Shown: in pieces, positions 21,001 through 42,990 of the stretch
How positions within the stretch are numbered: position 1 is the first letter of the stretch
Layout of the letters: each line of letters begins with the position of its first letter
Source of the DNA: Nymphaea colorata
Taxonomy: Eukaryota > Streptophyta > Magnoliopsida > Nymphaeales > Nymphaeaceae
Reading direction: 5' to 3'
Length of the DNA: 64,000 bases
Assembly (NCBI RefSeq): GCF_008831285.2
Contig: NC_045149.1
Coordinates: 21,343,035-21,407,034, forward strand
Translations under genes and position numbers: made by a program
The notes under the pieces: generated by a model
Seen by the model: only the letters and a program-made list of their open reading frames with translations
The model's database searches: none
Told to the model about the DNA's origin: nothing

Positions 21001-24000
21001 GTGGATATTGGTGCACTACATTGACCAAGCTTTTTCGAAAGGCCTCTATTACTTGTTGTATAACTAGAAGAAAAGTTCTTCACTCTCTTAAGCAGTTTGG
21101 CATGTCACAGATCAATATGAGAAGCTACACCCAGTCCATTGGATATGATTCACTACATTGAGGTGTTGCAATAGCAGGAGACGTCAAAAAGCTTGCTCTT
21201 GTTGATGGCCCTTTATAGCCATGAGGCAGTGCATTGGAATGTCCTTGAATTAGTTTTCAATATGGATAAGATTTAATCTGATCCTGCTCTACTCAATATA
21301 ACAAGTTGTAGTTGCTGCTCCTGAGCATCAAACCAGTGGCGGAGCTAGGAATTTAAGTGGGGGTTGGGGGGTTTAGTATATAAATTTTTAGTTGCGGAAG
21401 GACACATGCATGTAAATCTCTATAATCATAATGATAAAGGAGTTCTCTGCTTGTTCTTTCTTCAACTTTTGTGCGCTTGCCTGCTAGGTCACCAACAAAA
21501 GTTACACCAATGTGACTACTTATGTCTGGCCTATGTTAATTTATGCAGGATCTAATAATAGTTAATGTGCTCTGAGAGTCTTCTTTAGTCCTTCCACGGT
21601 TCCACCATTATGCCTGAAATTTCATGCAGTTCAGTTGGATGCAAGATCTTACGCAGAGGCCTACCAAGAATATCTGGCACGATTCCTGGGTTCATCCTTA
21701 ATCCAGGATCGTGGTTCATCTTGAAGATAAATATTATGCACTCCAAAGTAAAGGAAAAGAGAAACAAGCAAAACTCTTGAAAAGTTTCTGAAGTTAAATT
21801 TCTCTCTCGAACTTTGCAAAGTATAGTTTTTTCATACTTAAAGCTATAAACGTATGGTGTTATGTAGGCATTCATGCATCTGCACATGTACAAAAAATTT
21901 GGTTGGGCATTTTCTTCAACAATCAGAAAGATGGATACGTATATACATACATATCTAAATATGCTTTCTTCATGTGTATGTGTGTTTATGCATATGATTT
22001 GTGCATGTCCATCATGAACATCCAGAATTATTTATTCCTTTAACAATTTGGAATAATATTATTAGTATTGCTATTTGCTATTTTACACCCTTAGTACCAC
22101 AAGCTTCAATTTCCTTTAGTTCTAAGTATTTTTTTTCAATGTCTCCAAGGTTTATCCTGGAAAATGGAATGGTGGCATAGAAGCTGAAACGATGGCTGCA
22201 AACGAGCTTAGAGCTCATGCTTCCCTCCAAGTAAGGATCTCTGGTATTTTTGAGTGCCTCCTAAAAACCTTTTTATCTGAGTAGTCCTCTAGAAAAAAGT
22301 GAAATTTGATGTGTTTCATGTAGGATGTTGCGGAAGATGTCTGTCAAAATCTTCAGATACTGTTAGGTGGTTTTGAAACAAGCACAGGTGAACAGGTGTT
22401 GCTCAATGCTCATGAATGCAGAATTCTTTTATTAAATTATTCACTTGTGACTTGTAATTTATTTTATGATACTGGGCTAAAAATTCACCTCTTCGCTCTC
22501 CAGTGGCTTGCATTCCAGAATGATGGAACATATAGCGCAGCAGACTATGCCAAGGTTATGAGCGAATCAGTATCAAATTCTCAAGCCCAAAGAGAGTGGA
22601 AATTATGGAATCCTTTTGAATGGAAAGAGTCCATCAAACGCAGGCAAATTTTTGTGATTAAGATACTTCGGGGTGCTATACATGGACTTGCCTTCATGCA
22701 TGACCATGATAGGCTACATCAAAGTCTTGGACCAGCTTCTGTAGTTCTCAAGTATTGCAAATTTTTTTTCAGCATTATGGTTATTTTCTTTAAAATATGT
22801 CTTACAATTATGATGTTGTCTTTATCTTGCAGCACAATTAGAGAGAAGGATGTTGCCTATTTGGTGCCACAAGTTCGTGATTTAGCATTTTCTGTTGATA
22901 TAAGGTAACGTTCTGCTTAATTTCTAAGACACTGAAAAGCTGGTTGTCTCGTAGGCTGCAAGATGGTGGTTTTACATGTAGTGTCTTGGCTCTTACGAGT
23001 GAAAAAATGCTTAGGTGTTTCTCTTGAAAAATGCTATTCGAACCTTCAGGTGCTCATCTCTAGAGTCAGGCCCAAGCCTTCTCTCAGATGCATTATGGCA
23101 CAGGGCAGCTAGGGCAGGTGCTTTTAACTCCTTGGAGAAGCGAACCTTTGGTATAGCAGATGACATGTAAGGAACTTTAGGTCTTCTTCCCTCTTTTGCT
23201 TTTCAACAGCTCCTTACTTTTTGCTTGACAGATGAAATTTAAGATTTGACTTTCATCTTTCTCCTTGTTGAGAGCAGCTTTGAAGCTGGACTTCTCCTGG
23301 CATACTTGGCCTTTGTCCCATTCTGCGAAGCAGGCATAATGGATGGGCCCTCACTACAGGTAATTGACTGCTCCTGCTCCTGCTCCTGTCATTGTCTTTC
23401 CTTTGTCCCTGGATTTATTAAGCTAGAATCCCCATTCAGTTGCAATGTTTTTTTTGCCTTAAATGATTATGGTTATCATATTATGCTTGCAGAAGCTGTT
23501 GGAGAGCACTTTCCAACTGAACATGGAAGCAGTAAGAGAGTATGTCTCCCTTCTTGCTTTTTTGCCATGAATGATGTGGCTTTCCTTAGCTCTTGCCTAG
23601 TAATATTTTATTTGAAAGTATGCATCCGTTTTTGGGCCCGAAAGTAGAATTATCATGACATATCCGTGGCGTTTTTGGCAGAATAATCATAGTGTGAGTA
23701 ATTGGTGTGTTTATTTTAAGCCATGTTTCCAGCTCCAAGTCTGGAAACTGGTTGGCTGGGTCTTGAAGGCAGGTAACACATGAAATATCTTGCTTAGTAT
23801 ACTACTAAGAATGGGGCATAAGAGTAAAATATCCCCACTGAACTCCGTAACTTGTGTGAAAATTTTCATGTGGAGGATGAATAGATTCTCATATGGTTCT
23901 TTGCTACACCTTATAGTTGGGAAAAGTGCGTAGGCTTAGGCACTGGGAAGTGACCTAAAGGCCTGGGCTAAGGCACCTTGGTTGTCCAAACCAAAAAAAT

Positions 24001-25036
24001 ATTTTTCTCTTGTCTCTTAACCCTAAAAGAATAATTCTTTGTTTGTTTTGTCTTCTAGTTTTTGATTTAGGTGGAGTTTTCTTGAACCCACTTTGATCCT
24101 TTTTCCTCTTTTTATCTTTCCCTCAATCTTTTTTCCCATTTTGTCGAGCAGGACCTCCTAGTTCCTGCCTGGAGGACCTCCCACTTTGATCATTGTGGGG
24201 TTCACCATCTATTCCTGCCTAGTGCTCTCAACTAAATAGCTGCTACATAATTTCCTTGCGGAGATCGGGCTCTGTGCCCCATAGATTGTATGGTGGTAGG
24301 AATATGTCCGGTACCATAAATTTACCAAGAAGGAAAAAAGGATTGGGTGTACAGAACCACATGTAGATATAAATATTTTTTGCAGTTCCTTAAAAGGTTT
24401 GTTTAATTTATTGCAGATATTGTCAAGCGGATGAATGCCTCTCTGAGGCTGTCAACTTTTTAGACCTTGGTGGTTGTGCTGGTTGGGAGCTTCTGCAGGT
24501 TGGATTCTGGCCTGCATTTGGAAAGTTTTCTGTTCTCACTACCATCATTTAATACGCTTATCTATTTTTGAACTTCAACTACTGGTCATCGAGCTTAAAG
24601 AAGAAGATTTCTTTCCATTATGAGTTGCATTTGAACTCACTACAACTTTGACATAGTCGGTTCTATCTGCTACATCACTCCCTCTCCTGAACAAGTTGGA
24701 CTTTAGTAGAGATTGATGCTCAACATGATTGTTGTGGAGCTTTTCAAGTTGCCATTTCAGATATCCTTGTACAAGCAACAAGCCACTGAAACGATCATAC
24801 AGCCAGTCATTGAAATGAACATGTGGATATTCCTAGCTACCCACTTGTTCATGTTACCTGTTAATGTTTCTGTCCATTTAGATAAACTGGCTTTGCCTCT
24901 ATGTTTTTCAATTCTGCAAGAACCTAATCGTTCTATTTCCTGTTGTTCATAGGCGATGCTGAATCCAGACTATCGCAAAAGGCCGATGGCAACGACTGTT
25001 CTAAAGCATCGGTTTATGACCGGTGATGTTCTTTAG
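18017..25036 (+). CDS. FBN11: Fibrillin-11/PAP14-type kinase-like protein, ending before the fibrillin domain (12 exons, 443 aa)
   Basis: Exons: 18017-18276, 18620-18748, 18839-18896, 22150-22230, 22324-22395, 22504-22751, 22833-22904, 23050-23166, 23278-23359, 23493-23539, 24417-24498, 24953-25036. All junctions follow GT-AG and the 1332-nt sum stays in frame. The product resembles plastid-lipid-associated protein 14 (ORG1), a plastid protein with a kinase-like region followed by a PAP/fibrillin domain. Residues 1-80 are rich in S/R, as in a transit peptide. FKVYPG (148-153) supplies a beta3-type lysine. The catalytic-loop position reads LHQSLGPASV (271-280) instead of HRDLKP, and RDLAFS (298-303) stands near the DFG position, so activity is doubtful. 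A TAG at 25034 follows FMTGDVL, where family members continue into the lipid-binding fibrillin domain. I found no fibrillin exons downstream. The ATG at 18017 is preceded by a GTG. The start is plausible but not proven. The gene is either truncated or a kinase-only form. Confidence 0.8.
18897..22149 (+). other. 3.25-kb intron 3 of the fibrillin-11-like gene
   Basis: The intron runs from a GTATGG donor after FK to an acceptor before VYPG. It contains a 762-bp hAT-type element (20025-20786) and, near 21336-21410, a GGCGGAGCTAGGAATTT stretch resembling the end of the small hAT-like family seen elsewhere in the window. No other gene is seen. Confidence 0.8.
20025..20786. mobile_element. 762-bp hAT-type non-autonomous element with CGTATCGTACGATACG palindromes
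   Basis: Terminal inverted repeats are CAATGTTAT and ATAACATTG. The flanks are an exact 8-bp duplication, GTAAAGAC (20017-20024 and 20787-20794), as expected of hAT transposition. Subterminal regions are packed with GTATCG/CGATAC motifs in both orientations, forming self-complementary blocks at both ends. The interior (about 20210-20690) is AT-rich without a transposase. Confidence 0.9.
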
Positions 25037-27046
25037 AGACCTTTACCTGACTCAGGAGAGGAGAGGGAAAACACGCATTTCTTTGTACTCAAACATATAG
25101 ACACCAGAGTTTTATTAATTTTGATATTGTTGGGAATTCATCAGTGACAAGAAGCACTTATCAACTAGTTGTAAGTCCAACCAGCGACCTCTCTTCTGAC
25201 AAATAAGTCAGAGCTTTCAAGATCAAATAGTCGGATCCTCATTCAGGCTTGGTCTAGAAACTCTGGTTCATGATTTGGCATCTGATTTCTACGGCATCTC
25301 AGACCTTTTCATTAATCGATTGGTTCTAGTTAGTCCAACCTTTAAAAATCCAACAGCAACCAGCAAGGATGACAACATTATGACCATGATTACGGCGGCT
25401 AGCTCATTCACACATCGGGCGGTTGGAACTTTGGTGGCTCTGAGATTTCAAGATATCTATGTCAAAGTTTCTGTCACTTTCGTTTCTAACATTTAACCAG
25501 GCTTGGATAGCATGAATGCATTATAATAAATAAGTTTATTGTGTAGAAGCTCAAAAATAGAGTGACAGAACTCTAAAAATACATGTAACTTTTAGTCCAA
25601 ACTTTTCTCTCACCATAATCGTTCTTTTGTTGGAGATTTATAGAAGCTTCATGATGGAGGATGGTATCTTAGCCTTGAGAAGGTCCACGCATTCGAGTGT
25701 TTGTTTGCACATCCTACTTGCAAACAGAATGTTTTCCAGTTGAAACCTATCACAAGTTAAAACCCCGTAAATATGGACTTTACAGGATCCTTCTATGCTC
25801 AGGTAAAAATGTGTACCGTTTAGTCCTTCCCGATGATTGAAATATCTCCCCAGTCTTCAAAGTTGCCGACCTACACCCCCACCATGACACAATTGAATCT
25901 TCAACTAATATTTAGACAGAGGAGACTAGTCATATGCATAGAGATTCTTCAGACGCATCAGACCCACAACGAGATGTATCAGTCGTTGATGTGTCCAACA
26001 AGCTGGGTCCCGAACTTGTGATCCATTTTGGGTCTTAGAATAGATATTATCTATTTTGTTTTTGAGTTTGGATCTTTTGTTTTGAGATCCGAGATTCATT
26101 TCGGATTTAGGTTTTAGCCTCTTTAAAAAGAGCTCTTAATTCTGTTTTAGAGCTAATTACTGACGAAGAGAAACCCAATTTGTCTTTGCTTTTGAATTCC
26201 TTTGTGTCTCCTGCATTTTCCTGCTTTGTTTGCATTCTTTGGTGCCCTTTCTGCATTACACACACATGCATGCATGCATGGCATAACTTTTTGAGAACTA
26301 TGGAACATCAATTTTGCTCTTTCTAATTAACTTGATTGGTAGTTTAAAAGATGTCGCAGATAAAGTTTTTTCTTGTCATGTTAATATCCATAGCCTCTTT
26401 CTCTTGAAATAAAGGTAGTTTATATCTTGAACGATGAGTCTACTTTACAAAGTTCGCTGCCTTAGCTTTAATAAAAATTCTTTCATTTTCAGTTTGTACT
26501 TTCCGCCTGCCTTTATTTTTTTGTTCCTTCAAAGTCCACCATAATTAATCACTCTTACCGAACATATGACAAACACTAAAAGTGCGTTGACAATCCGAGT
26601 GGGACTTAGCAACAAGCACTTATGATGTAAGGTGACATTTTTATGGTGCATTTTCGATGCCATCACTTGTATGTTTCAATTCTTTTATATATGAACTATT
26701 TAATGCGATTAATGACAAGGATACCTTAACGTGGTATAGACATTTTCCTACCTGTCTAAACCATTTCTCAGCCCTTTCACCTCAAGAAGCTTCAGCATTC
26801 CCTTTTCAAAAAGAGAATTCAAACTTTCCTTTTATCTTTAAATGGGATATTTCGTCTAAACTTAATGAAACAAGAAAAACCAAACATTTTCATTTACCTG
26901 CCTGTTTTGCTTTCAAACATGTAATTCCTTCAATAGTTTAAACATTTCTTTGTGAAATATTCTGTTTAAATGGCTTAGATCTTGATTTCTCTTTGCAGAG
27001 AAAATCTACCATGGCCCTATTCTTCCTTGTTCTAAAAGCAAAGGTA
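25037..27046. other. Gene-free part of duplication copy A
   Basis: Downstream of the kinase-like gene's stop codon. The first ~100 bases remain open past the TAG. No fibrillin-domain exon was recognised. The block at about 25858-26385 is essentially identical to 35881-36408 in copy B. Sequence at about 26020-26270 has an LTR-like look, but no boundaries could be fixed. Confidence 0.5.
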
Positions 27047-27054
27047 GACTTGAA

Positions 27055-27232
27055 CAAGGGCAGAGCTAGGGCTCGTTTGGGCCCTCAACCCACCTAAAAA
27101 AAATGACATGTAAATTTTAAAAAAATTCACTTGCTTTATATAAAAATTTTGAAAAATGATATTTCGGCCCTAGTAAAAATTTAGAAACTTTAATTCGGTC
27201 CTTTTCATGAAAAATTTCTAGCTCTGTCCCTG
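27055..27232. mobile_element. 178-bp hAT-like MITE, TIR CARGGRCAGAGCTAG, in copy A
   Basis: The left end CAAGGGCAGAGCTAG and the reverse complement of the right end, CAGGGACAGAGCTAG, match at 13 of 15 bases. The flanks are an exact 8-bp duplication, GACTTGAA (27047-27054 and 27233-27240). The interior is AT-rich and non-coding. Confidence 0.85.
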
Positions 27233-28560
27233 GACTTGAATATGTAATGAACCTCATATACCTATAACCCACCCCTAGCTACCCATTCCCACACTGAGCT
27301 CAGGCTTCTAATTTGACAAATTGAAACCTAGATCTCGGTATATTTTTTGTTGTTGCCAAAAATAATAAGAATGCTTAGGACAACTAATCATGTAGTCAGC
27401 CCTTTTTTAAACCTTGGAAAACTTCCAAGAATCTTTGATATGAGATTAAACATCCTCGCAATAAGATTTTACACTTCAACATGCCATGTGACAACTTAAA
27501 AAACGTTTAGAACAAGGGAATTCAGTTTTTTTTCAGAGATATCTGCCAGATAAACATGACACTAAGTGCAAAATTACAAAATTTATTAAATCTTTGGTCA
27601 TATAGACACAGCAGATGATCTTTATCATATTTTAGCACCTAAGTTGGCAAGATTTTCAAAAGGTGCTATGTTTTTGTATGTATCAGTAGAGGCTGGAAAG
27701 TTGGAAAGGTGTAAAGATAGTGACTCCTAGCCAGATGACAACTTTGTAGCCACTATAACCTATGTGGAATTTTCACTGTACAATAGATTCAATATAGCTC
27801 ATACTTGCTAATTAAATTGTTTGATTCACCACATATTCGAAATTTGTCACATAGCTATGGTTTGATCTTGAGAAATTGGATACCATTCTTCGTTTTTTTT
27901 TTTCATTGTTAATTTGAGAATCTCTTTTGAACAACTTTTTTCTTTAGTCAATCTCACAATCATAAAGAAGAAACCAACAGTGATGAGTATTTTTGTTGCT
28001 ATTAAAGCAACATCTAGATAGTGGTAGCTCAAGATTAATTAGCTCTTGCGTTGCTCACTAGGGGGCTTTTCATGCACTATAAACATCACCAACAAAAGGT
28101 GGGCACTTTATTTCCATGACTGCAAATAGTTCGGTTTTGGACTGGATAAATAAATGCAAATCAGATTTTTGGACAAGATTTGATATAGATTTGGATCAGT
28201 TCTGATATATATATAGCTGATAAAAAAAAAAGAAAAACTCATAATTGAGCAAGGAAAAATAAAGGAACATACTAAGAGGCTTGCAAAAAGTGTCTCCTCG
28301 AGGTCGTGTTTGATGGCCTTGATTATAGGTTGCACGATAATGCGAACTGGGTATGAGCAAGATCGACGCAAGTTTAGCTTCAACTCCACTAATTTATTAA
28401 ACAAGTTGAGTTCAATGAATTCACTTAATTAAAGAAGCCGAACTTGAGTTCGATAGGCCATGCTTATTTAAGCTTGATTATGCTTGTTGAATGTGCATGT
28501 AGAAACATATTTTTCTAGTGGTCATAGAAAATGCCTTGGCCACACTTTTTAAAGCTTGAG

Positions 28561-28720
28561 CTAAGGGCAGAGTCAGAAATTTTTAACTAAAGGGCACTAT
28601 TAATAAATTTTAAATTTTTGAGAAGCATCAACATGTAAATGAGAAAAATTGCCCTAAGGTATCAATACAGAAATAACTATTTTGTTTTGGTCCATATTGC
28701 CCACAACTGCTTCGCCCCGG
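28561..28720. mobile_element. 160-bp member of the small hAT-like family, in copy A
   Basis: The left end CTAAGGGCAGAGTCA and the right end ending GCTTCGCCCCGG are degenerate inverted repeats related to the 178-bp element. The flanks share GCTTGA (28554 onward and 28721 onward), a partly eroded duplication. Boundaries are less certain than for the other members. Confidence 0.5.
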
Positions 28721-29395
28721 GCTTGAACTCAACCAAACTCAAGCTGGGCTTGCTAAGACTTGAACCCATATAGCTCAGCATCAGCTAATTAGCTCAAACA
28801 TGGCTCATGAACTGACCAAGGGCGTGTTCTTGGTGGTAAATCTTCTCTCTTATTTTTAAGCAAAAAAAAAAAAGATTGGTACTTCCAGGGTAACTTCATC
28901 AACGTTCGAATGGGTCTTGTACTTTTAATGACTGGAGAGAATGTCCGGCCCATTAAACACGCCCCAAGTGAAAATAAAGTCACCGAGTAGAACTTCCTTT
29001 TCCTTATTTTCATTTCCATGTACACACTGTGCCTTCACTTACTAATACGAGATTCGCATCATCAATTTAATACCAAAGGTATGAGGAGAAACACATCCCA
29101 ACATAAACGAAACAAAAATGAGCTGCCAAACATTTAATTGAAAAGAGAAATATTGTCACCATTAGAGCAAACTTCTTGCATACAAAATCCTTCTTGATTC
29201 ACCAATCTATAGCACAAAAAAAGTGTGTATAAATCTACTTACAAATTCGATGGAACACCCCCTAAAAGTTTCATTAATGTGAGACACCCATCCTATATAT
29301 CAAACACGACCCTATATTTCTTTGGACTTTTAATCTCTTAATATTGAACACAATAACTATATTTCTTTGGATAATATATGTTGTTGAATCTTGGC

Positions 29396-30352
29396 TTAGA
29401 CCAGGGTGGTACAGGAAGAAGTCTCCGGATCCCACAGAGCTGGCAAGAGGTACTTCCTACCATTAAGGCCCACAGCGTTGTAGCTAGCGCCGGTTGTAGG
29501 GTCTACCAGAAGGCTTCCGGCGTAACCCGGGTACGAGCCCTTACCATACATGCCGGGGCAAGCGGAGGCTGCCTCCAGCGGTGCACCGGGGGCTCCCTGG
29601 TAGTAGCCGTTTCCGAGCGGGTTGGTGACGGCGCCGGCGAGAAGCGACGCGACGTTGATCACCATGCCGTCCATGCCGACGTCGCCGTTAGGGGCAACGA
29701 GGGGCGGGGACTGGGGCCCGTAGATGGGCTGGTGGAAGGGCCAGGCACAGGTACCGGGGCACTGAGAGGCGGAGTTGCCGGCCCAGACATAGGCGGCGGA
29801 GGGCGGGTGGGCTCCGTGGGTCCCGCAGCCGCCCATGCAGAAGCCCTCGACGGCCACGTCGGCGGAGGTGAGGACGAGGGTGAGGGACCTACCGCCGGCA
29901 GCCGACGGAGCGTGCCTGGAGGCCAACTGGGAGATTTGGGCCCTAGTGAGGGTCTTGCCCAGGGAGCAGGCGGAGTCGAGGGTCTGGCCCATCAGCACCG
30001 GCACGACGGAGGCGGCGAAGGAGCCGGAATTGGGCACCGCAGCAGGGTACTTCTCTACGGTCCTCCACCAGGTGGAGACGGTGGGGTGGCCGGCGGCGGC
30101 AGAGGTCGGCTGGTGGAGGGAGTTGATGAAGTCGACGACGATGGCGCGCTGGGAAGGGGTGAATGCACCGTACCAAACGATGCTCAGGGGGAGTTTTCCG
30201 GTGAGCAGGGGACCGTTGTGATACTTGAGAACGAGCGGCGGAGGGGTGTAGAGGGAGGCAAGCTTCCTCGACCCTCCTTCCATAGACAAGGAGAGCTCCG
30301 CCGTGCAGAGGAGCACTGCCATGGCCAGTAAGGCGCTATAGGAAGAAGCCAT
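29396..30352 (-). CDS. EXL: EXORDIUM-like secreted protein, copy A (318 aa)
   Basis: Phosphate-induced-1/EXORDIUM family: apoplastic proteins linked to brassinosteroid-promoted cell expansion and carbon/phosphate status; their biochemical activity is unknown. A single exon starts at ATG 30352 and ends with TAA; the length is normal. Residues 1-23 form a signal peptide. Conserved blocks: YHNGPLLTGKLPLSIVWYG (44-62), SLGKTLT (130-136), ADVAVEGFCMGGCGTHG (164-180), SQCPGTCAWPFHQPIYGP (196-213), APNGDVGMDGM (220-230), NPLGNGYYQG (244-253) and LNGRKYLLPALWDP (296-309). The cysteines of CMGGC, CPGTC and the C-terminal region are kept. The coding sequence is very GC-rich against AT-rich surroundings. 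A TATA motif lies ~90 bases upstream and a G-box/BRRE-like site ~640 bases upstream. It differs from copy B at only four residues (positions 4, 25, 77 and 87). Confidence 0.96.
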   Translation of the reverse strand: MASSYSALLAMAVLLCTAELSLSMEGGSRKLASLYTPPPLVLKYHNGPLLTGKLPLSIVWYGAFTPSQRAIVVDFINSLHQPTSAAAGHPTVSTWWRTVEKYPAAVPNSGSFAASVVPVLMGQTLDSACSLGKTLTRAQISQLASRHAPSAAGGRSLTLVLTSADVAVEGFCMGGCGTHGAHPPSAAYVWAGNSASQCPGTCAWPFHQPIYGPQSPPLVAPNGDVGMDGMVINVASLLAGAVTNPLGNGYYQGAPGAPLEAASACPGMYGKGSYPGYAGSLLVDPTTGASYNAVGLNGRKYLLPALWDPETSSCTTLV

Positions 30353-30440
30353 TGCTCCAGAAACAGAGAATCGGACAGGGAGGAGAGAGGAGGAATGAGG
30401 ATGATGATGATGGTGATGCGAGATGAGAGGAGGAGAGGTC

Positions 30441-30450
30441 GCTTATATAG
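30441..30450 (-). promoter_or_regulatory. TATA box of EXORDIUM-like gene A
   Basis: The minus strand reads CTATATAAGC about 90 bases before the ATG, a normal distance for a plant TATA element plus a short leader. Confidence 0.75.
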
Positions 30451-30986
30451 AGGAGGAAAGGAGGAGTCAGCCACACCTCCCCGTCCCATGAATGAAAGGG
30501 GAGAAGGGAAGGAGGCGGTAGGCTTCGCTGGTACATGGTTGGAGAAGAAGAGTCGCATTGGAGGTGCGTGAGATGGGACCCGAACCTTCTCATTTATGCC
30601 TCAAGGGGTTGCCAAGTTCTCCTTTGGTTGACCACTCGCTCATTATTGAATTCTATCTTTTTCTTTCTCCTTATGTGACAAAATCATATGACCCACATTG
30701 ACACCGTCAACTTTCTCCGACCTTCAAACAGGAAATATATAAAATCTTTGGGTTTAGACCCAAACCATATCAGATCCAAATCGTTAAATTGAGTCCATAT
30801 CAACAAATTCATCAAAGTGGTTCCCGACTGAAATTGGTTCAACCAAAGACCCGATCCAAACCTACACCACATTGCCAACTCCTTGTTTATCTCCAAAGCC
30901 CTCAATAAATGTTGGTGCTTGTTGGGTCCCAAACACAACGTCCCTCTCTTTCTCCCTCCCTCCCTTCCAAGGAAAGCAGAGACGTG

Positions 30987-30994
30987 CACGTGTG
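30987..30994. promoter_or_regulatory. G-box overlapping a BRRE-like motif upstream of EXORDIUM-like gene A
   Basis: CACGTG (30987-30992) overlaps CGTGTG (30989-30994) in the context GACGTGCACGTGTGCAG. G-box is a bHLH/bZIP and BZR site, and CGTGTG is the brassinosteroid response element consensus. It lies about 640 bases upstream of the ATG and is kept in copy B. Function is inferred. Confidence 0.45.
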
Positions 30995-32378: not shown

Positions 32379-32848
32379 TAGGGGTGAACAACGAGTCAAG
32401 CTACTCGAGCTCGACTCATTAAAGCTTAACTTATGAATGAGGTCGAGCCATGTCATTTGCTTAACGAGTCGAGCTCGAGTTCATGCCTCGACTCTTTCAA
32501 ATAATTGAGTTGAGTTCGAGCTCAACACGTAACTGCATAGTCGAATCGAGCTCGAACCTTAATCGAGCTTGTCGAGCCTTAATCAAGTCGATATATTCAA
32601 ACGAGTTTATGAGTTTGTCGAACCTTAATCGAGTCGAGCTCAAGCTCAACACGTAACAATGATATCAATTCTATTCAAATGAGTTGTGTCGAGCTCGAGC
32701 TCAACAGATAACGACGAATATCAATTCTATTCAAACGAGTTTTTTGAGCCTTAATTGAGTCGAGTTCAACACATAACGATGAATATCAACTCTATTTAAA
32801 TGAGTTTGTCGAGCCTTAATCGAGTTGAACTCGAGCTCAACACGTAAC
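32379..32848. mobile_element. Left part of a GAGCTCGA-rich hAT-like element, cut off at the copia junction (copy A)
   Basis: It begins TAGGGGTGAACAACGAG, like the intact element at 42467-42982 in copy B. CCTACTAG stands immediately before it, corresponding to CCTACTAT in copy B. It is filled with degenerate repeats of TCGAGCTCAACACGTAAC. At 32848 it is replaced by copia sequence, so the right ~140 bases and the right TIR are missing. Confidence 0.85.
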
Positions 32849-33532
32849 GCGGTTTTGTTGGGGCACTTCAATATCTTACATTTCCTAGACCAGATATTAT
32901 ATATGTTGTGCATCAAGTATCTCAATTTATGCATGCACCTAGAGATACTCACATGGATGCTGTCAAAAGAATATTTAAGATATCTTAAAGGGACAATAAG
33001 AGATGACTTAGTTTATGGTAAGAGTGAAAATATAAATGCTGGACATCAACTTATGACATTCACAGATGCAGATTGGACTAGAGATCCCGATCAAAGAAAG
33101 TCTATTTCTGGTTTATGTATTTTCATTGGACGTAATCTTGTGTCTTGGAGTTGTCGAAAGCAAAAGGCAGTAGCAAAATCCAGCACTGAAGCTGAATACA
33201 GATGCATGGCTGCAGGTGCTGTTGAAGTTACATGGGTTAGACATTTGCTAGAAGACATTAGAGAAAAGATTAACACATCAATATTAATGTGCGATAATCA
33301 AAATGTTATTAACATTGCCTTTAATCCCATACAACATGGTCGAACAAAATACATTGAGATTGATCAACACTTTGTTAGACAAAAGGTGGAAGACAAGAAG
33401 ATTCAACCTATTTATGTTCATACAAGTGAACAAGTTGCAGACTTATTTACAAAAGGCTTAACAAAGCAACAATTATGGTTTCTCAAAGGCAAGTTGTACA
33501 TGGTGCAAAACCATGCACAACTTGAAGGAGGG

Positions 33533-33968
33533 TGTTAAACTATAAATCCTTCACCAGCACGTTAAAGAGGAGTCTCTTAGGATTTTACATCCTTGTAAAA
33601 TGTGTTAAGATATTTAATGTTCTTGTAACATATGAAGAGTTTCCTAAGATTCTATCTTATAGTTAATATCCTTGTAATATGTGAAGTCTCATAGGATTCT
33701 ATATTGTAGTTATTATCCTTGTAATATGTGAAGTCTCCTAGGATTCTATGATGTAATTAATGTCCTTGTACCTTGTAAAATCTCATAGGATTTTAGGATT
33801 GAAGACTCTTAAAATTCTGGAAATGAGATTATAAATAGAGACAGTGCAAACCACTTTGGTCATGACTTCTTCTTCTCTTCATCTTCTTTTTGTTCACTCT
33901 TTCTCTATATATATTCATGCGTGAATGCTGATTTCAGAATTGAGATACTGGTGCTTGAATTTCTTACA
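33533..33968 (+). repeat. 436-bp 3' LTR of the copia fragment
   Basis: It starts TGTTAAAC right after the polypurine tract and ends TTCTTACA, so it has 5'-TG...CA-3' boundaries. A TATAAATAGAGA motif near 33831 fits an LTR promoter. A block of about four 47-bp tandem units fills 33603-33790. The base after the LTR is the first base of duplication copy B (GTTCT). Confidence 0.88.
33603..33790 (+). repeat. Four 47-bp tandem units inside the copia LTR
   Basis: Units begin near 33603, 33650, 33697 and 33744. They share CCTTGTAATATGTGAAGTCTC and TAGGATTCTAT-like cores. The first and last are the most diverged. Confidence 0.8.
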
Positions 33969-34477
33969 GTTCTTTGCTACAACTTATAGTTGGGAAAAGT
34001 ACGTAGTCTTAGGCACTGGGAAGTGACCTAAAGGCCTAGGCTAAGCCACCTTGGTTGTCCAAACCAAAAAAAATATTGTTCTCTTGTCTCTTAACCTTAA
34101 AAGAGTAATTCTTTGTTTGTTCTATCTTCTAGTTTTTCATTTAGGCGGAGTTTTCTTGAACCCACTTTGATCCTTTTCCTTCTTTTTATCTTTCCCTTAA
34201 TCTTTTTTCCCATTTTGTCGAGTAGGACCTCCTAGTTCCTGCTTGGTCCTCCTTGTGGGGTTCACCATCTATTCTCACCTAGTGCTCTCAACTAAATAGC
34301 TGCTACATAATTTCCTTGCAGATATCGGGCTCTGTGCCCCATAGATTGTATGGTGGTATGAATATGTCCGGTACCATCAATTTACCAAGAAGGAAAAAAG
34401 GATTTGGGTGTACAGAACCACATGTAGATATAAATAATTTTTGCAGTTCCTTAAAAGGTTTGTTTAATTTATTGCAG

Positions 34478-35096
34478 ATACTGTCAAGCAGATGAACGCC
34501 TCTCTGAGGCTGTCAACTTTTTAGACCTTGGTGATTGTGCTCATTGGGAGCTTCTGCAGGTTGGATTTTGGCCTGCATTTGGAATTTTTTTTTTCTCACT
34601 ACCATCATTTAATACGCTTATCTATTTTTGAACTTCAACTACTGGTCATCGAGCTTAAAGAAGAAGATTTCTTTCCATTATGAGTTGCATTTGAACCCAC
34701 TACAACTTTGACATAGTCGGTTCTGTCTGCTACATCACTCCCTCTCCTGAACAAGTTGGACTCTAGTAGAGATTGATGCTCAACATGATTGTTGTGGAGC
34801 TTTTCAAGTTGTCATTTCAGATATCCTTGTTCAGGCAACAAGCCACTGAAACGATCAAGTCATTGAAATGAACATGTGGATATTCCTAGCTACCCACTTG
34901 TTCATGTTACCTGTTAATGCTTCTGTTCGTTGAGATAAACTGGCTTTGCCTCTATGTTTTCCAATTCTGCAAGAACCTAATCGTTCTATTTCCTGTTGTT
35001 CATAGGCGATGCTCAATCCAGACTATCGCAAAAGGCCGATGGCAACGACTGTTCTAAAGCATCGGTTTATGACCGGTGATGTTCTTTAGAGTTCTT
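34478..35096 (+). pseudogene. Orphan copy of the last two exons of the fibrillin-11-like gene
   Basis: Exon 11 equivalent: about 34478-34559; exon 12 equivalent: about 35007-35090, ending in the same TAG after FMTGDVL. The splice acceptors and the donor after LLQ are kept and both exons are open. The preceding ten exons are absent, as the copy begins in intron 10 right after a copia LTR, so no normal protein can be made. It has DERL and LGDCAHW where the main gene has DECL and LGGCAGW. The first-named forms look closer to the remembered family consensus. Confidence 0.85.
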
Positions 35097-37142
35097 TACC
35101 TGACTCACGAGAGGAGAGGGAAAACACACATTTTTTTGCACTAAAACATATACAGACCAAAGTTTTATTAATTTTCATACTGTTGGGAATTCATCATTGA
35201 CAAGAAGCCCTTGTCAACTAGTTGTAAGTCCAACCGGCGACCTCTCTTCTGACAAATAAGTCAGAGCTTTCAAGATCAAATAGTCAGATCCTCATTCAGG
35301 CTTGATCCTGAAACTCTGGTTCATGATTTGGCATCTGATTTCTACGACATCTCAGACCTTTTCGTTACTTGATTAGTTCTAGTTAGTCAAACCTTTAAAT
35401 CTCAGAACCTGATTACGGCTGCTGGCTCATTCACACATCTGGCGGTTGGACCTTTGGTGGCTCTGAGATTTCAGGATATCTATGTCAAAGTTTCTGTCAC
35501 TTTCGTTTCTAACATTTAACCAGGCTTGGATAGCATGAATGCATTATAATAAATAAGTTTATTGTGTAGAAGCTCAAAAATAGAGTGACAGAACTCTAAA
35601 AATACATGTAACTTTTAGTCCAAACTTTTCTCTCACCATAATCGTTCTTCTGTTGGAGATTTATAGAAGCTTCATGATGGAGGATGGTATCTTAGCATTG
35701 AGAAGGTCCACGCATTCGAGTGTTTGTTTGCACATCCTACTTGCAAACATAATGTTTTTCTGTTGAAACCTATCACAAGTTAAAAGCCCGTAAATATGGA
35801 CTTTACAAGATCCTTCTATGCTCAGGTAAAAATGTGTACCTTTTAGTCCTTCCCAATGATTGGAATATATCCCCAGTCTTCAAAGTTGCCGACCTACACC
35901 CCCACCATGACACAATTGAATCTTCAACTAATATTTAGACAGAGGAGACTAGTCATATGCATAGAGATTCTTCAGACGCATCAGACCCACAACGAGATGT
36001 ATCAGTCGTTGATGTGTCCAACAAGCTGGGTCCCGAACTTGTGATCCATTTTGGGTCTTAGAATAGATATTATCTATTTTGTTTTTGAGTTTGGATCTTT
36101 TGTTTTGAGATCCGAGATTCATTTCGGATTTAGGTTTTAGCCTCTTTAAAAAGAGCTCTTAATTCTGTTTTAGAGCTAATTACTGACGAAGAGAAACCCA
36201 ATTTGTCTTTGCTTTTGAATTCCTTTGTGTCTCCTGCATTTTCCTGCTTTGTTTGCATTCTTTGGTGCCCTTTCTGCATTACACACACATGCATGCATGC
36301 ATGGCATAACTTTTTGAGAACTATGGAACATCAATTTTGCTCTTTCTAATTAACTTGATTGGTAGTTTAAAAGATGTCGCAGATAAAGTTTTTTCTTGTC
36401 ATGTTAATTTCCATAACCTCCTTCTCTTGAAATAAAGGTAGTTTATATCTTGAACGATGAGTCTATTTTACAAAGTTCGCTGCCTTAGCTTTAATAAAAA
36501 TTCTTTCATTTTCAGTTTGTACTTTCCGCCTGCCTTTATTTTTTTGTTCCTTCGAAAGTCCATCAGAATTAATACACTCTTACCGAACATATGACAAACA
36601 CTAAAAGTGCATTGACAATGCGAGTGGGACTTAGCAACAAGCACTTGTGATGTAATGTGACATTTTTATGGCGCATTTTCGATGCCATCACTTGTATGTT
36701 TCAATTCTTTTCCAAGGGTTCGTGGATCTAACAAAAAGTGAAATGGATGTATAAAAAGGAACAATGTTATATATAAACTATTTAATGCGATTAATGACAA
36801 GGATAGACATTTTCCTACCTGTCTAAACCATTTCTCAGCCGTTTCACCTCAAGAAGCTGCAGCAGTCCCTTTTCAAAAAGAGAATTCAATCTTTCCTTTG
36901 TCTTAAATGGGATATTTCACCTAAACTTACGTGCTCCAGTTTCAAACATTTCCATTATCTACCTGTTTTGCTTTCAAACATGTAATTGCTTCAATAGTTG
37001 AGCACATTTCTCTGTGAAATATTCTGTTTAGATGGCTTGGATCTTGATCTGTCTTTTGCAGAGAAAAACTACCATGGCCCTATTCTTCCTTGTTCTAAAA
37101 GCTACCATGACCCTATTCTTCCTTGTTCTAAAAGGAAAGATA
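35097..37142. other. Gene-free part of duplication copy B
   Basis: Counterpart of 25037-27046, again without a recognised fibrillin-domain exon. The block at about 35881-36408 is essentially identical to copy A. The ORF near 35856-36044 recurs in copy A but has no known domain. Confidence 0.5.
37069..37134. repeat. 33-bp tandem duplication present only in copy B
   Basis: A unit starting CTACCATGGCCC occurs at 37069-37101 and again, with one change, at 37102-37134. Copy A has a single unit near 27007. Confidence 0.9.
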
Positions 37143-37150
37143 GACTTGAG

Positions 37151-37323
37151 CAGGGCCAGAGCCAAGGTAGGGCTCGCTTGGGCCCACACCCCACCTAAAA
37201 AAAAATACATGTAAATTTTAGAAAATTTCACTTGTTCTATATAAAAATTTTGAAAAATGATATTTCGGCCTTAGTAAAAATTTAGAAACTTTAATTCGGC
37301 CCTCTTGATGAAAAATTTCTATG
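37151..37323. mobile_element. Copy B counterpart of the 178-bp hAT-like MITE, right end deleted
   Basis: The left end CAGGGCCAGAGCCAAGG is kept and preceded by GACTTGAG. The right terminal repeat (the CTAGCTCTGTCCCTG segment of copy A) is missing, leaving GACTTCAA as the right flank. Confidence 0.75.
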
Positions 37324-38639
37324 GACTTCAATATGTAATGAACCTCATATACCTGCACCCCATTCCCACACTGAGCTCAGGCTTCTAATTTGACAAATTC
37401 AAACCTAGATCTCGGTATATTTTTGTTTGTTGCAAAAAAGAAAAAGAATGCTTAGGACAACTAATCATGTAGTTAGCCGTTTTTTAAACCTTGAAAAACC
37501 TCCAAGAATCTTCGATACAAGATTAAACTTCCTCGCAATAAGATTTTACACTTCAACATGCCATGTGGCAACTAAAAAAACGTTTATAACAAGAGAATTT
37601 AGGTTTTTTTCAGAGATATCTGCCAGATAAACATGACTCTAAGTGCAAAATTACAAAATTTATTAAATCTTTAGTCATATAGATGCGGTAGATGATCTTT
37701 ATCATATTTTAGCACCTAAGTTGGCAAGATTTTCAAAAGGTCCTGGCTATGTTTTTGTATGTATCAGTAGAGGCTGGAAAGTTGGAAAGGTGTGAAGATA
37801 GTGACTCCTAGCCAGATGACAACTTTGTAGCCACTATAACCTATGTGGAATTTGCACTGTACAATAGATTCAATCTAGCTCACACTTGCTAATTATATTG
37901 TTTGATTCACCACATATTCTAAACTTGTCACATAGCTATGATTTGATCTTGAGAAATTGGTTACCATTCTTCGATTTTTTTCATTGCTAATTTGAGAATC
38001 TCTTTTGAACAACTTTTTTCTTTAGGCAATCTCACAATCATAAAGAAGAAACCAAGAGTGATGAGCATTTTTGTTGCTATTAAAGCAACATCTAGATAGT
38101 GGTAGCTCAAGATTAATTAGCTCTTGCGTTGCTCACTAGGGGGCTTTTCATGCACTATAAACATCACCAACAAAAGGTGGGCACTTTATTTCCATGACTG
38201 CAAATAGTTCGGTTTTGGACTGGATAAATAAATGCAAATCAGATTTTTGGACAAGATTTGATATAGATTTGGATCAGTTCTGATATATATATAGCTGATA
38301 AAAAAAAAAAGAAAAACTCATAATTGAGCAAGGAAAAATAAAGGAACATACTAAGAGGCTTGCAAAAAGTGTCTCCTCGAGGTCGTGTTTGATGGCCTTG
38401 ATTATAGGTTGCACGATAATGCGAACTGGGTATGAGCAAGATCGACGCAAGTTTAGCTTCAACTCCACTAATTTATTAAACAAGTTGAGTTCAATGAATT
38501 CACTTAATTAAAGAAGCCGAACTTGAGTTCGATAGGCCATGCTTATTTAAGCTTGATTATGCTTGTTGAATGTGCATGTAGAAACATATTTTTCTAGTGG
38601 TCATAGAAAATGCCTTGGCCACACTTTTTAAAGCTTGAG

Positions 38640-38799
38640 CTAAGGGCAGAGTCAGAAATTTTTAACTAAAGGGCACTATTAATAAATTTTAAATTTTTGA
38701 GAGGCATCAACATGTAAATGAGAAAAATTGCCCTAAGGTATCAATACAGAAATAACTATTTTGTTTTGGTCCATATTGCCCACAACTGCTTCGCCCCGG
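38640..38799. mobile_element. Copy B counterpart of the 160-bp hAT-like element
   Basis: Nearly identical to 28561-28720, with the same ends and flanking GCTTGA. It was inherited through the segmental duplication, not a separate insertion. Confidence 0.5.
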
Positions 38800-39472
38800 G
38801 CTTGAACTCAACCAAACTCAAGCTGGGCTTGCTAAGACTTGAACCCATATAGCTCAGCATCAGCTAATTAGCTCAAACATGGCTCATGAACTGACCAAGG
38901 GCGTGTTCTTGGTGGTAAATCTTCTCTCTTATTTTTAAGCAAAAAAAAAAGACTGGTACTTCCAGGGTAACTTCATCAACGTTCGAATGGGTCTTGTACT
39001 TTTAATGACTGGAGAGAATGTCCGGCCCATTAAACACGCCCCAAGTGAAAATAAAGTCACCGAGTAGAACTTCCTTTTCCTTATTTTCATTTCCATGTAC
39101 ACACTGTGCCTTCACTTAGTAATACGAGATTCGCATCAACAATCTAATATCAAAGGTGTGAGGAGAAACACATCCCAACATAAACGAAACAAAAATGAGC
39201 TGCCAAACATTTAATTGAAAAGAGAAATATTGTCACCATTAGAGCAAACTTCTTGCATACAAAATCCTTCTTGATACACCAATCTATAGCACAAAAAAAG
39301 TGTGTATAAATCTACTTACAAATTCGATGGAACACCCCCTAAAAGTTTCATTAATGTGAGACACCCATCCTATATATCAAACACGACCCTATATTTCTTT
39401 GGACTTTTAATCTCTTAATATTGAACACAATAACTATATTTCTTTGGATAATATATGTTGTTGAATCTTGGC

Positions 39473-40429
39473 TTAGACCAGGGTGGTACAGGAGGAAGTC
39501 TCCGGATCCCACAGAGCTGGCAAGAGGTACTTCCTACCATTAAGGCCCACAGCGTTGTAGCTAGCGCCGGTTGTAGGGTCTACCAGAAGGCTTCCGGCGT
39601 ATCCCGGGTACGAGCCCTTACCATACATGCCGGGGCAAGCGGAGGCTGCCTCCAGCGGTGCACCGGGGGCTCCCTGGTAGTAGCCGTTTCCGAGCGGGTT
39701 GGTGACGGCGCCGGCGAGAAGCGACGCGACGTTGATCACCATGCCATCCATGCCGACGTCGCCGTTAGGGGCAACCAGGGGCGGGGACTGGGGCCCGTAG
39801 ATGGGCTGGTGGAAGGGCCAGGCACAGGTACCGGGGCACTGAGAGGCGGAGTTGCCGGCCCAGACGTAGGCGGCGGAGGGCGGGTGGGCTCCGTGGGTCC
39901 CGCAGCCGCCCATGCAGAAGCCCTCGACGGCCACGTCGGCGGAGGTGAGAACGAGGGTGAGGGACCTACCGCCGGCGGCCGACGGAGCGTGCCTAGAGGC
40001 CAACTGGGAGATTTGGGCCCGAGTGAGGGTCTTGCCCAGGGAGCAGGCGGAGTCGAGGGTCTGGCCCATCAGCACCGGCACGACGGAGGCGGCGAAGGAG
40101 CCGGAATTGGGCACCGCAGCAGGGTACTTCTCTACGGTCCTCCACCAGGTGGAGACGGTGGGGTGGCCGGGGGCGGCAGAGGTCGGCTGGTGGAGGGAGC
40201 TGATGAAGTCGACGACGATGGCGCGCTGGGAAGGGGTGAAGGCACCGTACCAAACGATGCTCAGGGGGAGTTTTCCGGTGAGCAGGGGACCGTTGTGATA
40301 CTTGAGAACGAGCGGCGGAGGGGTGTAGAGGGAGGCGAGCTTCCTCGACCCTCCTCCCATAGACAAGGACAGCTCCGCCGTGCAGAGGAGCACTGCCATG
40401 GCCAGTAAGGCGCTATAGCAAGAAGCCAT
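39473..40429 (-). CDS. EXL: EXORDIUM-like secreted protein, copy B (318 aa)
   Basis: Near-identical duplicate of the gene at 29396-30352, with the same single-exon structure, length, signal peptide and conserved blocks. The only amino-acid differences are C at 4, G at 25, S at 77 and P at 87. All family cysteines and the LNGRKYLLPALWDP C-terminal block are intact and nothing suggests inactivation. The start is the ATG at 40429; the stop is TAA. Its TATA motif lies about 120 bases upstream (40551-40560). Its leader carries a 31-bp tandem duplication that copy A lacks, so the two promoters/leaders differ more than the proteins. Like copy A it is probably apoplastic and growth-related, by family knowledge. 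Confidence 0.96.
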   Translation of the reverse strand: MASCYSALLAMAVLLCTAELSLSMGGGSRKLASLYTPPPLVLKYHNGPLLTGKLPLSIVWYGAFTPSQRAIVVDFISSLHQPTSAAPGHPTVSTWWRTVEKYPAAVPNSGSFAASVVPVLMGQTLDSACSLGKTLTRAQISQLASRHAPSAAGGRSLTLVLTSADVAVEGFCMGGCGTHGAHPPSAAYVWAGNSASQCPGTCAWPFHQPIYGPQSPPLVAPNGDVGMDGMVINVASLLAGAVTNPLGNGYYQGAPGAPLEAASACPGMYGKGSYPGYAGSLLVDPTTGASYNAVGLNGRKYLLPALWDPETSSCTTLV

Positions 40430-40434
40430 TGCTC

Positions 40435-40487
40435 TAGAAACAGAGGAATCGGAGAGAAAGATAGTTAGAAACAGAGGAATCGGAGAG
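40435..40487 (-). repeat. Tandem duplication in the leader of EXORDIUM-like gene B
   Basis: A 22-base block beginning TAGAAACAGAGGAATC is found at 40435-40456 and again at 40466-40487, a 31-bp period. Copy A has a single, shortened form. It lies within ~60 bases upstream of the ATG, probably in the transcribed leader. Confidence 0.85.
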
Positions 40488-40550
40488 GTAGGAGAGAAGA
40501 GGAATGAGGATGATGATGATGGTGATGCGAGATGAGAGGGGGAGAGGTCG

Positions 40551-40560
40551 CTTATATAGT
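40551..40560 (-). promoter_or_regulatory. TATA box of EXORDIUM-like gene B
   Basis: The minus strand reads ACTATATAAG, the equivalent of the copy A element, about 120 bases before the ATG. Confidence 0.75.
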
Positions 40561-42458
40561 GGAGGAAAAGAGGAGTCAGCCGCAGTCAAGTTCTCCCCGT
40601 CCCATGATAATCATGAAAGGGGAGAGGGGAAGGAGGCGGTAGGCTTCGCAGGCATATGGTCGGAGAAGAAGAGTCGCCATTGGCGGTACGTGAGATGGGA
40701 CCCGGACCTCCTCATTTATGCCTCAAGGGGTTGCCAAGTTCTCCTTTGCTTGACCACTCATTCATTATTGGTTTCTATCTTCTTCTTTCTCCCTATATGA
40801 CAAAATCATATGACCCACATTGACAACGTCAACTTTCTCCGATCTCCAAACAGGAAATATATAAAATCTTCGGGTTCAGACCCGAACCATATCAGATCCA
40901 AATCGTTAAATCAACAAATTCAGCAAAGTGGTTCACCAAACACAACCCCGACTGAAATTGGTTCAACCAAATACCCGATCCAAACCTACACCACATTGCC
41001 AACTCCTTGTTTATCTCCAAAGCCCTCAATAAATGTTGGTGCCTTGTTGGGTACATCCCTCTCTTTCTCCCTCCCTCCCAAGGAAAAAGCAGAGACGTGC
41101 ACGTGTGCAGTTTAAAAAGCGCATCCACATAATTTCATATGTCGGCAGCCAAAATTGGCCATGCAATGAGTCATGGGCCGTAAAATTTGATCCGTTTAGT
41201 CCACACCCCAAACACTCATGACCCATCTATTTCCTCATTTATTACTAGCAATTGATCTTTTTATATATATATAATGATTGATTGGACTATTTAGAGTCAT
41301 CCAATTCATTTACAGGGTCATTCTATCTATCACCATATAGATTGTTCAAAAAAAAGAATGAGAAAATGCAGAAACTAATATTAAAATATGAAAATGTCAA
41401 TCATTTTTTTTTAGTATATCCATCAAGCATCAGGATAGATAAGACATTTCTTATGAGTGAGCTGGATGATTCTGGATAGTTATAATCATCATTTACTCCT
41501 TTTCACTTTCTCTTTTTCTAGGTGGAACACATATCTTTCACTTTCTCTCGCTTGACATATATATACACACATATACATATATATGTATGTATGTAAACAA
41601 AATAAATTATAAAAAGAACAAGTGACATTTGAATCATCTAGCCCTAGTTTCCATCTTTTTGCCTTTTTTTCTTCCTCTAAATAGCAAATTTGTATGATAT
41701 ATATATATATACACACACGAATGAAGATTGCACCTATATTTAGTATTACTCCTGACATTGACATTCTTGGTGTGGATGTTTTAAGGGGTCATATCTTTTG
41801 ATTATTGTTTTTCTTACCAAAAGTTTCGTAATTAATGTCATTTTTTATTATGGTGGTTAGCTTTGTAGGAGCTGTTCAATTCGATCTTACCCATCAAAAC
41901 TCGCTATCGGATGGCATGGACTCGTGAAGGAAGCCACATTTCCTCTTGAACAGCCACAAGGTTCAAATCAAGCTGATCCAACAGTCAATTTAGAAAAGCG
42001 GCCACCATCTCTCTCTTTCTCTCTGTTGTCCCATGTAGCTGTGCTAAAGATGGAGTTGTTTTTGTTTTATAGCACAGCCTTGATCGAGGCCCCAAAAAGC
42101 AGGTTAGCTCTATTACTACATGAAGAAGATTTAAGGACAGTCTTCTTCTGATCAACAAAATCTGATGCAGATCACAAGATGGGTACTTAAACCATAATGG
42201 GGAGCCTTAATTTTTATGAATATCTATGTAGCTTCTTCTATGGTCCCAAGTGGATCGGGTTCTACTCCGATTTATTTACACACATCACGGAGATCCGATT
42301 CAATTGAGTTCCATGCAGGTTTTTACCCATACTGGGGTTTAGAACCCGATTTCGAGTCAAATATGTCATTATTGGATCTTGTTCTGATCGCCGAACTAAA
42401 GTAATCAAAGTTGAAATGTAGTTGGTTTTCACGTAAATCCGATCGGTTGACATCTCTA
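40561..42458. other. Upstream region of EXORDIUM-like gene B
   Basis: Promoter-side DNA followed by AT-rich sequence corresponding to 30451-32370 of copy A. It has TA and CA/TA microsatellites near 41560-41590 and 41697-41716. No gene recognised. Confidence 0.5.
41100..41107. promoter_or_regulatory. G-box overlapping a BRRE-like motif upstream of EXORDIUM-like gene B
   Basis: CACGTG (41100-41105) overlaps CGTGTG (41102-41107), in the same context as in copy A. Confidence 0.45.
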
Positions 42459-42466
42459 CCTACTAT

Positions 42467-42982
42467 TAGGGGTGAACAACGAGTTGAGCTCGACTTATTA
42501 AAGCTCGGCTCGTGAACGAGTTCAAGCAAGGTCATTTGCTTAGCGAGTCGAACTCGAGTTCATGAGTCGACTCGTTCAAATAATCGAGTTGAGTTCGAGC
42601 TCAACACGTAACTGCCGAGTCGAGTTGAGCTTTAATCGAGCTTGTCGAAACTTAATCAAGTCGATATATTCAAACGAGTTTACGAGTTTGTCGAAACTTA
42701 ATCGAGTCGAGTTCGAATTCAACACGTAACGATTGATATCAATTCTATTCAAACGAGTTTGTCTAGGCTTAACGATGAATATCAATTCTATTCAAACGAG
42801 TTCGTCGAAGCTTAATCAAGTCGAACTCGTGCTGAACACGTAACTATCGAGTCGAGCTTGAGCTCGAGCTGCTTCCTTCGAGCTATTCTCAAGCTCTAGC
42901 CTAGTTGAGCTCAAGGTTTCATTAGTCAAGCCGAGGTCGAGCTGACTAAACTCGGGCTGGACTCAGCTCGTGTTCATCCCTA
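42467..42982. mobile_element. 516-bp intact GAGCTCGA-rich hAT-like non-autonomous element
   Basis: The left end TAGGGGTGAACAACGAG and the right end CTCGTGTTCATCCCTA are imperfect inverted repeats. The flanks CCTACTAT (42459-42466) and CCTACTAC (42983-42990) form a 7-of-8 target duplication, hAT-like. Internally it is a dense array of degenerate repeats around TCGAGCTC, CAAACGAG and AACACGTAAC. No transposase. Confidence 0.88.
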
Positions 42983-42990
42983 CCTACTAC

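Follow-up and report, generated by a model that had tools for sequence, protein, structure and literature searches.

The 64-kb window analyzed here (the whole stretch of 64,000 nucleotides at positions 21,343,035 to 21,407,034 of Nymphaea colorata contig NC_045149.1, from a searched assembly of 407.8 Mb in 783 contigs) harbors a divergent kinase-like gene, EXORDIUM/PHI-1-like genes and a short hAT-like element, several of which are duplicated in tandem, the two direct copies being joined by the 3' end of a Ty1/copia retrotransposon (Table 1). The copies consist of blocks sharing 87 to 98% identity in a self-BLAST of the window, and their global alignment spans 8,707 aligned bases with 374 substitutions (4.3%) and 44 insertion or deletion (indel) events; the window contains no N bases. 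An earlier note, made from the sequence without database searches, had described two direct copies with these ends, suggesting a self dot-plot as a check, and had placed about 1.1 kb of copia 3' sequence between them, with the left copy ending inside a hAT-like element and the right copy starting directly after the copia 3' long terminal repeat (LTR). This anatomy was borne out: the self-BLAST returned the same ends, and a genome search with window positions 17000 to 28000 as the query (39 of 3,898 candidates scored) aligned the first base of the right copy exactly with query base 6897, which is window position 23896. The tandem duplication joined by a copia 3' end is, thus, real, and represents an event of a type that is ordinary in plant genome evolution but whose history is unusually readable.

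Table 1. Coordinates of the duplicated segments, the copia junction and associated features within the window.
Feature	Position	Strand	Description	Evidence
Divergent kinase-like gene	18017..25036	+	12-exon hand model with approximate ends; exon 10 ~23493-23543, exon 11 ~24427-24498, exon 12 ~24953-25036	
Left copy	23896..32848	none	Kinase intron 10 with empty copia site, exons 11-12, EXORDIUM-like gene (-), its upstream region, truncated hAT-like element	Self-BLAST, global alignment
Identical tract	25847..26385	none	539 bases equal to right copy	
Near-identical tract	27989..29416	none	About 1.4 kb, differing from right copy by 8 substitutions and 2 indels	
EXORDIUM/PHI-1-like gene, left copy	29396..30352	-	318 aa	PF04674, E 8.6e-117
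Left hAT-like element	32379..32848	none	Cut at seam after 470 bp; 8-bp flank CCTACTAG	
Seam bases GCG	32849..32851	none	Neither hAT nor copia	
5'-truncated Ty1/copia remnant	32852..33968	+	pol 3' end with a single 1-bp frameshift, followed by purine tract and 3' LTR	
3' LTR	33533..33968	+	436 bp, TGTTA...TTACA	
Right copy	33969..42844	none	First base directly 3' of copia LTR	Self-BLAST, global alignment, genome search
Orphan kinase exons, right copy	34488..35089	+	Exon 11 (34488-34559), exon 12 (35006-35089); splice acceptors and stop retained	
EXORDIUM/PHI-1-like gene, right copy	39473..40429	-	318 aa	PF04674, E 2.3e-116
Right hAT-like element	42467..42982	none	Complete, 516 bp; flanks CCTACTAT (42459-42466) and CCTACTAC (42983-42990)	

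The exact right-hand end of the junction is specified by the LTR of the remnant, which is preceded by the purine tract GAAGGAGGG and carries the same ends as the LTR of a full-length relative, L075. In this relative (L002/L075), which is located on the same contig, the LTR terminates at the same base as that of the window and a 5-bp target duplication, AATAT, is present on both sides; in four further relatives (L003, L006, L007 and L008) the LTR terminus differs in sequence from that of the window. Scoring of 40 of 1,030 candidates in a genome search with the copia sequence recovered the window itself and 39 other places, all 39 of which start at query base 4, so that the copia part begins at 32852. 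Because the hAT alignment stops at 32848, the intervening GCG is assigned to neither partner.

Relative L075 encodes a copia-type gag, an integrase core (rve) and then RVT_2, a part of the element that the window fragment lacks; the fragment starts at approximately position 4280 of the 5,392 positions of the relative. The earlier note had described the breakpoint as joining a hAT interior to the interior of a copia reverse transcriptase (RT). The hAT portion of that description holds; extension of the RVT_2 profile, matched over 3 to 106 of its 244 positions in the relative, would instead place the copia breakpoint at about the end of RT, towards what we take, by its position and a motif, to be RNase H, rather than in the middle of RT. 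The remnant's own frame (32804 to 33535) yielded no Pfam families and no PDB matches at E values up to 1, and the corresponding frame of L075 likewise yielded no matches at E values up to 0.01. The earlier note had advised a search nearby for the missing 5' half of the element. BLASTN searches of the window with six pieces taken from a full-length relative gave matches for three, all at the remnant, and these pieces revealed no other stretch of the family in the window.

The insertion site maps to the kinase-like gene, in which position 23896 lies between exons 10 and 11 of the hand-made 12-exon model, in agreement with the proposed insertion into intron 10. In the left copy this site is uninterrupted, to the base. 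The left copy holds exons 11 and 12 of the complete gene, and the right copy those two exons alone. The Pkinase match of the hand-joined exon peptide is weak (E value of 0.01 and 15.7 bits, below the curated cutoff of 31.7), and beyond this match the kinship of the gene to kinases is presumed. The region of exons 4 to 10 (22100 to 23895) has one match in the genome, namely itself (one candidate), and a second such region was found neither among the 783 contigs nor in the window self-BLAST. The search for lost kinase exons proposed in the earlier note consequently returned no second copy of exons 4 to 10, exons 1 to 3 being covered solely by the repeat-crowded search with positions 17000 to 28000. 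Two repeats were observed in and near this gene: an approximately 760-bp dispersed repeat in a kinase intron (20023 to 20788), present at 38 other scored places with 89 to 98% identity, and, downstream of the gene within the duplicated segment, an LTR-element pol remnant (25679 to 25837) with a Tf2-1-like SH3 domain (E value of 8e-08).

The other partner at the seam is a 516-bp element which, in its complete right copy, ends in the short terminal inverted repeats TAGGGGTGAACAACGAG and CTCGTGTTCATCCCTA and is flanked by target-duplication 8-mers agreeing at 7 of 8 bases. In a genome search (40 of 1,417 candidates scored), the element matched 38 scored places in addition to its two copies in the window, and many of these places have the same ends. 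Of 18 copies fetched, the 10 near-full ones were judged by eye (the 8 partial copies being unscored), and their flanking 8-mers matched at 8 of 8 bases in five, 7 in two, 6 in one, 5 in one and none in one. Together with the ends of the element, these mostly matching 8-mers support the assignment of the element, which is too short to encode a transposase, to a non-autonomous hAT-like family. Judged from the right copy, the seam falls 138 bp short of the far end of the element.

At the seam itself, the right-copy hAT element reads ACGTAACTATCGA and the copia relative L002/L075 reads ACGTAATATCGA at the same place, and, when the two are aligned over 13 columns, one of which is a gap, 12 bases are common to both, ACGTAA(C)TATCGA. 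Among 20,000 random pairs of sites, local scores at least equal to this one occurred for 0.4% when the right copy was sampled and for 0.1% when sampling was confined to the hAT element. This suggests that a microhomology-assisted join is plausible, even if the joint is not clean.

To compare the ages of the insertion and the duplication, divergence between the copies was calculated from positions 23896 to 25380, 26691 to 27988 and 30351 to 32378 (kinase exons 11 and 12 included). The hAT element, positions 25381 to 26690 and positions 27989 to 30350, the last of which hold a tract and the coding sequence, were left out. In these kept stretches 273 of 4,659 aligned bases differ, corresponding to a Jukes-Cantor (JC) distance of 0.061, or about 0.031 per copy, a figure which is raised, relative to the overall 4.3%, by the stretches having been chosen after the tracts had been seen. 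In the pol portion of the copia remnant, about 680 bases long, 25 changes are private, of which 20 are nonsynonymous and 5 synonymous, columns with disagreement among the six other copies having been set aside; this amounts to about 0.037, with a rough Poisson range of 0.024 to 0.054 by hand arithmetic (the lower bound corresponding to 16 of 680). The nonsynonymous share of these changes, 0.80 against a neutral fraction of 0.73, fits neutral decay of the pol fragment after insertion. Because the private change of the copia fragment (about 0.037) is near that of each copy (about 0.031), the sequence suggests that insertion and duplication are of similar age, within the errors. Across the whole fragment, 47 private changes were counted in 1,062 usable columns, and in a count made during the seam test 27 of 44 were C to T or G to A. 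The LTR part diverged more (tree branch of 0.093), as did the hAT element between the copies (JC of 0.136), so that mobile-element sequence seems to change faster here. Calibrated on the whole-genome duplication (WGD) of N. colorata, for which the accessible part of the published account gives a synonymous divergence (Ks) peak of about 0.9 and an age of 107 million years (Ma), and with equal rates assumed, the distance of 0.061 would be equivalent to about 7 million years.

The copies have not diverged uniformly. Two substitution-free runs, of 635 aligned bases (27989 to 28623, with one indel) and 539 bases (25847 to 26385), exceed the longest run of 406 obtained in 10,000 random placements; likewise, the emptiest windows of 500, 1,000 and 1,400 aligned bases contain 0, 2 and 8 substitutions, respectively, counts as low as which occurred in none of 2,000 shuffles for each size. 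The 539-base tract is bounded by dense substitutions at both edges, and the tract starting at 27989 has a sharp left edge and a gradual right edge. These near-identical tracts probably reflect gene conversion after the duplication, on at least two occasions, a process which did not feature in the earlier note; local mixing of the copies by the assembly could produce a similar pattern. Purifying selection is disfavored as the cause of the identical tracts, because hardly any of the one at 27989 to 29416 falls within EXORDIUM-like coding sequence, a dispersed repeat is contained in it, and it is more alike between the copies than the adjacent synonymous sites (Ks of 0.049). The repeat in question (28563 to 28719) is short and is found at many places with about 76 to 85% identity. 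No structured RNA was detected in the tract by Rfam at the gathering threshold, which returned only a tRNA-Lys (CTT) gene at 2288 to 2360. Such tracts matter for the dating of single-gene duplicates, as they can make part of the duplicate look at least 10 times younger (0.2% versus a tract-free divergence of about 6%).

The origin of the junction is best explained, in our judgment with about an even chance of being correct, by an unequal illegitimate exchange, or a template switch, between a copia-bearing and a copia-free chromosome, the former of two histories that had been offered in the earlier note. It is proposed that, on one chromosome, intron 10 of the kinase-like gene would have received a full-length copia element, and that this insertion would still have been polymorphic when breakage and rejoining out of register, or template switching guided by microhomology, fused the hAT interior of the empty chromosome to the copia pol region of the chromosome carrying the insertion. 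A single event of this kind could have produced the order of complete kinase-like gene with empty site, EXORDIUM-like gene, truncated hAT element, copia 3' end, exons 11 and 12, second EXORDIUM-like gene and complete hAT element. The copies would later have diverged by about 6% outside the tracts and undergone at least two gene conversions, with both EXORDIUM-like genes remaining under purifying selection. This history fits better than the other because one exchange suffices, the left site is uninterrupted, the ages are similar and the seam suggests microhomology. Several observations weigh against it. The polymorphism of the insertion is something that we infer, and the 5-bp target duplication of the insertion cannot be seen because its left flank is gone. 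The divergence of the LTR means that the insertion could be older, or that change preceding the insertion could inflate its age. At the seam, the longest exact common word (6 bases) is ordinary, being reached in 8 to 9% of random pairs; the observed sequence is ACGTAAC followed by GCG, where either partner would read TATCGA; six of the seven copia relatives compared have ACGCAA, ACGTAA occurring in L002 only; and the gapped seam test was designed after the seam had been seen.

An exchange involving a polymorphic insertion would not be required if an incomplete copia cDNA had been joined between broken ends as the tandem duplication formed. Either integrase or end joining would have linked its LTR end to intron 10, and the hAT element would have been attached to its ragged end. 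A complete 3' LTR, an unmade 5' part and a ragged end are expected where minus-strand synthesis is left unfinished, and the fragment indeed combines a complete 3' LTR with a ragged 5' end. Such a capture, absent from the earlier note, would also explain the empty left site without polymorphism and the roughly equal ages of insertion and duplication, and may thus account for nearly everything that the exchange does; we regard it as possible, if rather doubtful. The LTR end, complete to the base, suits integrase more than trimmed end joining, and an aimed literature search retrieved a paper on pieces of mitochondrial DNA at breaks but no duplication of this type. In yeast, Ty1 cDNA fragments are reportedly captured at chromosome breaks, which resembles the present case in placing truncated retrotransposon DNA at a repair joint; we know of no such joint that created a gene duplication. 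If capture were correct, the retrotransposon would itself have produced the gene duplication in a single step by acting as its splint, being neither a bystander nor one of a pair of homologous repeats. The second history of the earlier note, in which an older and larger tandem duplication was followed by a copia insertion into the second unit and a deletion running from the hAT element through exons 1 to 10 and the 5' part of copia, would generate the same final order, and the insertion age, at the low end of its Poisson range (0.024), falls below that of the duplication, so that the dates leave room for it. It is nevertheless unlikely, as it invokes three events rather than one or two, needs an insertion younger than the duplication, which the point estimates do not give, and finds no second region of exons 4 to 10 in the assembly or the window, as noted above.

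Unequal exchange between repeats is presented as a standard route to tandem duplication in the portion of PMC3744419 available, and an exchange between a copia element in intron 10 and another in the hAT element would have left a full copia at the seam, its 5' part being lost afterwards; this is very improbable, for an extra deletion is needed and, because BLASTN with the pieces of one relative gave nothing else of the family in the window, these chromosomes would have to lack both outer copia insertions. Nor is a single repeat present, as non-allelic homologous recombination (NAHR) between like repeats would require, at the junction and the two outer ends alike: a hAT element lies at the end of each copy, yet at the seam the left element is fused to copia. 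Transposition of the hAT element by reversed ends was also considered, given that a hAT-like element stands at the end of both copies and that Ac elements produce tandem duplications in maize, as reported in the accessible text of PMC3744419. The direct duplications described there are similar in having one element between the copies and one breakpoint without an element; their junction, however, is a hAT terminus with an 8-bp target duplication, whereas here the exact end belongs to the copia LTR. This route was rejected, retaining an almost negligible probability, because the seam lies within the element, where a terminus bordered by a target duplication would have been needed. Finally, the assembly may have placed two haplotypes one after the other, with a misjoin between repeats at the seam; the seam does join two repeat families, and the assembly was produced, according to the part of PMC7015852 available, with Canu 1.3 from PacBio RSII reads. 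We consider such an artefact improbable, because there is no gap, the divergence of about 6% in the kept stretches is in our judgment high for alleles and no second region of exons 4 to 10 was found in the assembly; the copia fragment, moreover, carries decay of its own. No heterozygosity figure for N. colorata was found in the accessible text of PMC7015852 (in which the word stem has zero occurrences) or of PMC9601493.

Among known systems, the Bar duplication of Drosophila is reportedly comparable in being a tandem duplication with a retrotransposon, B104/roo, at its junction between the copies; there, the partners of the exchange were reportedly two copies of the same element, whereas here they are unrelated elements. 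Tandem duplicates of maize and their association with LTR elements have been described (PMC6118310), and the available part of that account resembles the present analysis in treating tandem gene duplicates, enrichment of LTR elements and gene conversion; it is a survey in which no single junction is dissected, whereas one junction is dissected here. As it keeps four clues, namely an exact LTR end, an empty site, seam microhomology and similar ages, the junction constitutes a good natural test case for single-gene tandem duplication in plants, setting a polymorphic insertion against captured cDNA.

Through this event a second intact EXORDIUM-like gene was gained, and two kinase exons were orphaned on the downstream side of an LTR facing them; the claim of a duplicated gene accompanied by an orphan exon fragment therefore holds. 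The pair differs at 12 synonymous and 4 nonsynonymous sites (Ks of 0.049 and nonsynonymous divergence, Ka, of 0.0057), and both copies are intact and under purifying selection since the duplication. The 3' LTR contains the promoter-like motif TATAAATA at about 33830, oriented into the orphan exons, and a chimeric or antisense transcript from this LTR is possible on the basis of the motif. Across 33830 to 35089, this TATAAAT box faces orphan exons 11 and 12, antisense to the right EXORDIUM-like gene.

A third EXORDIUM-like gene, inverted (53099 to 54073), is much older, with a Ks of about 0.52 to the pair, and all three window genes match PF04674 (Phi_1 conserved region) over positions 1 to 276 of 276. 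Genome-wide, 35 PF04674 stretches were obtained from 39 scored candidates, 16 of them near full length by hand count, and 10 of these 16 lie within about 86 kb on contig 8, in a cluster that also includes fragments (15003565 to 15100623). Upstream of the left EXORDIUM-like gene, positions 30430 to 31000 match an inverted pair on contig 1 (18198552 to 18200287), in whose approximately 3-kb loci no EXORDIUM-like coding sequence was found by tblastn; this upstream sequence may represent a mobile element within the promoter.

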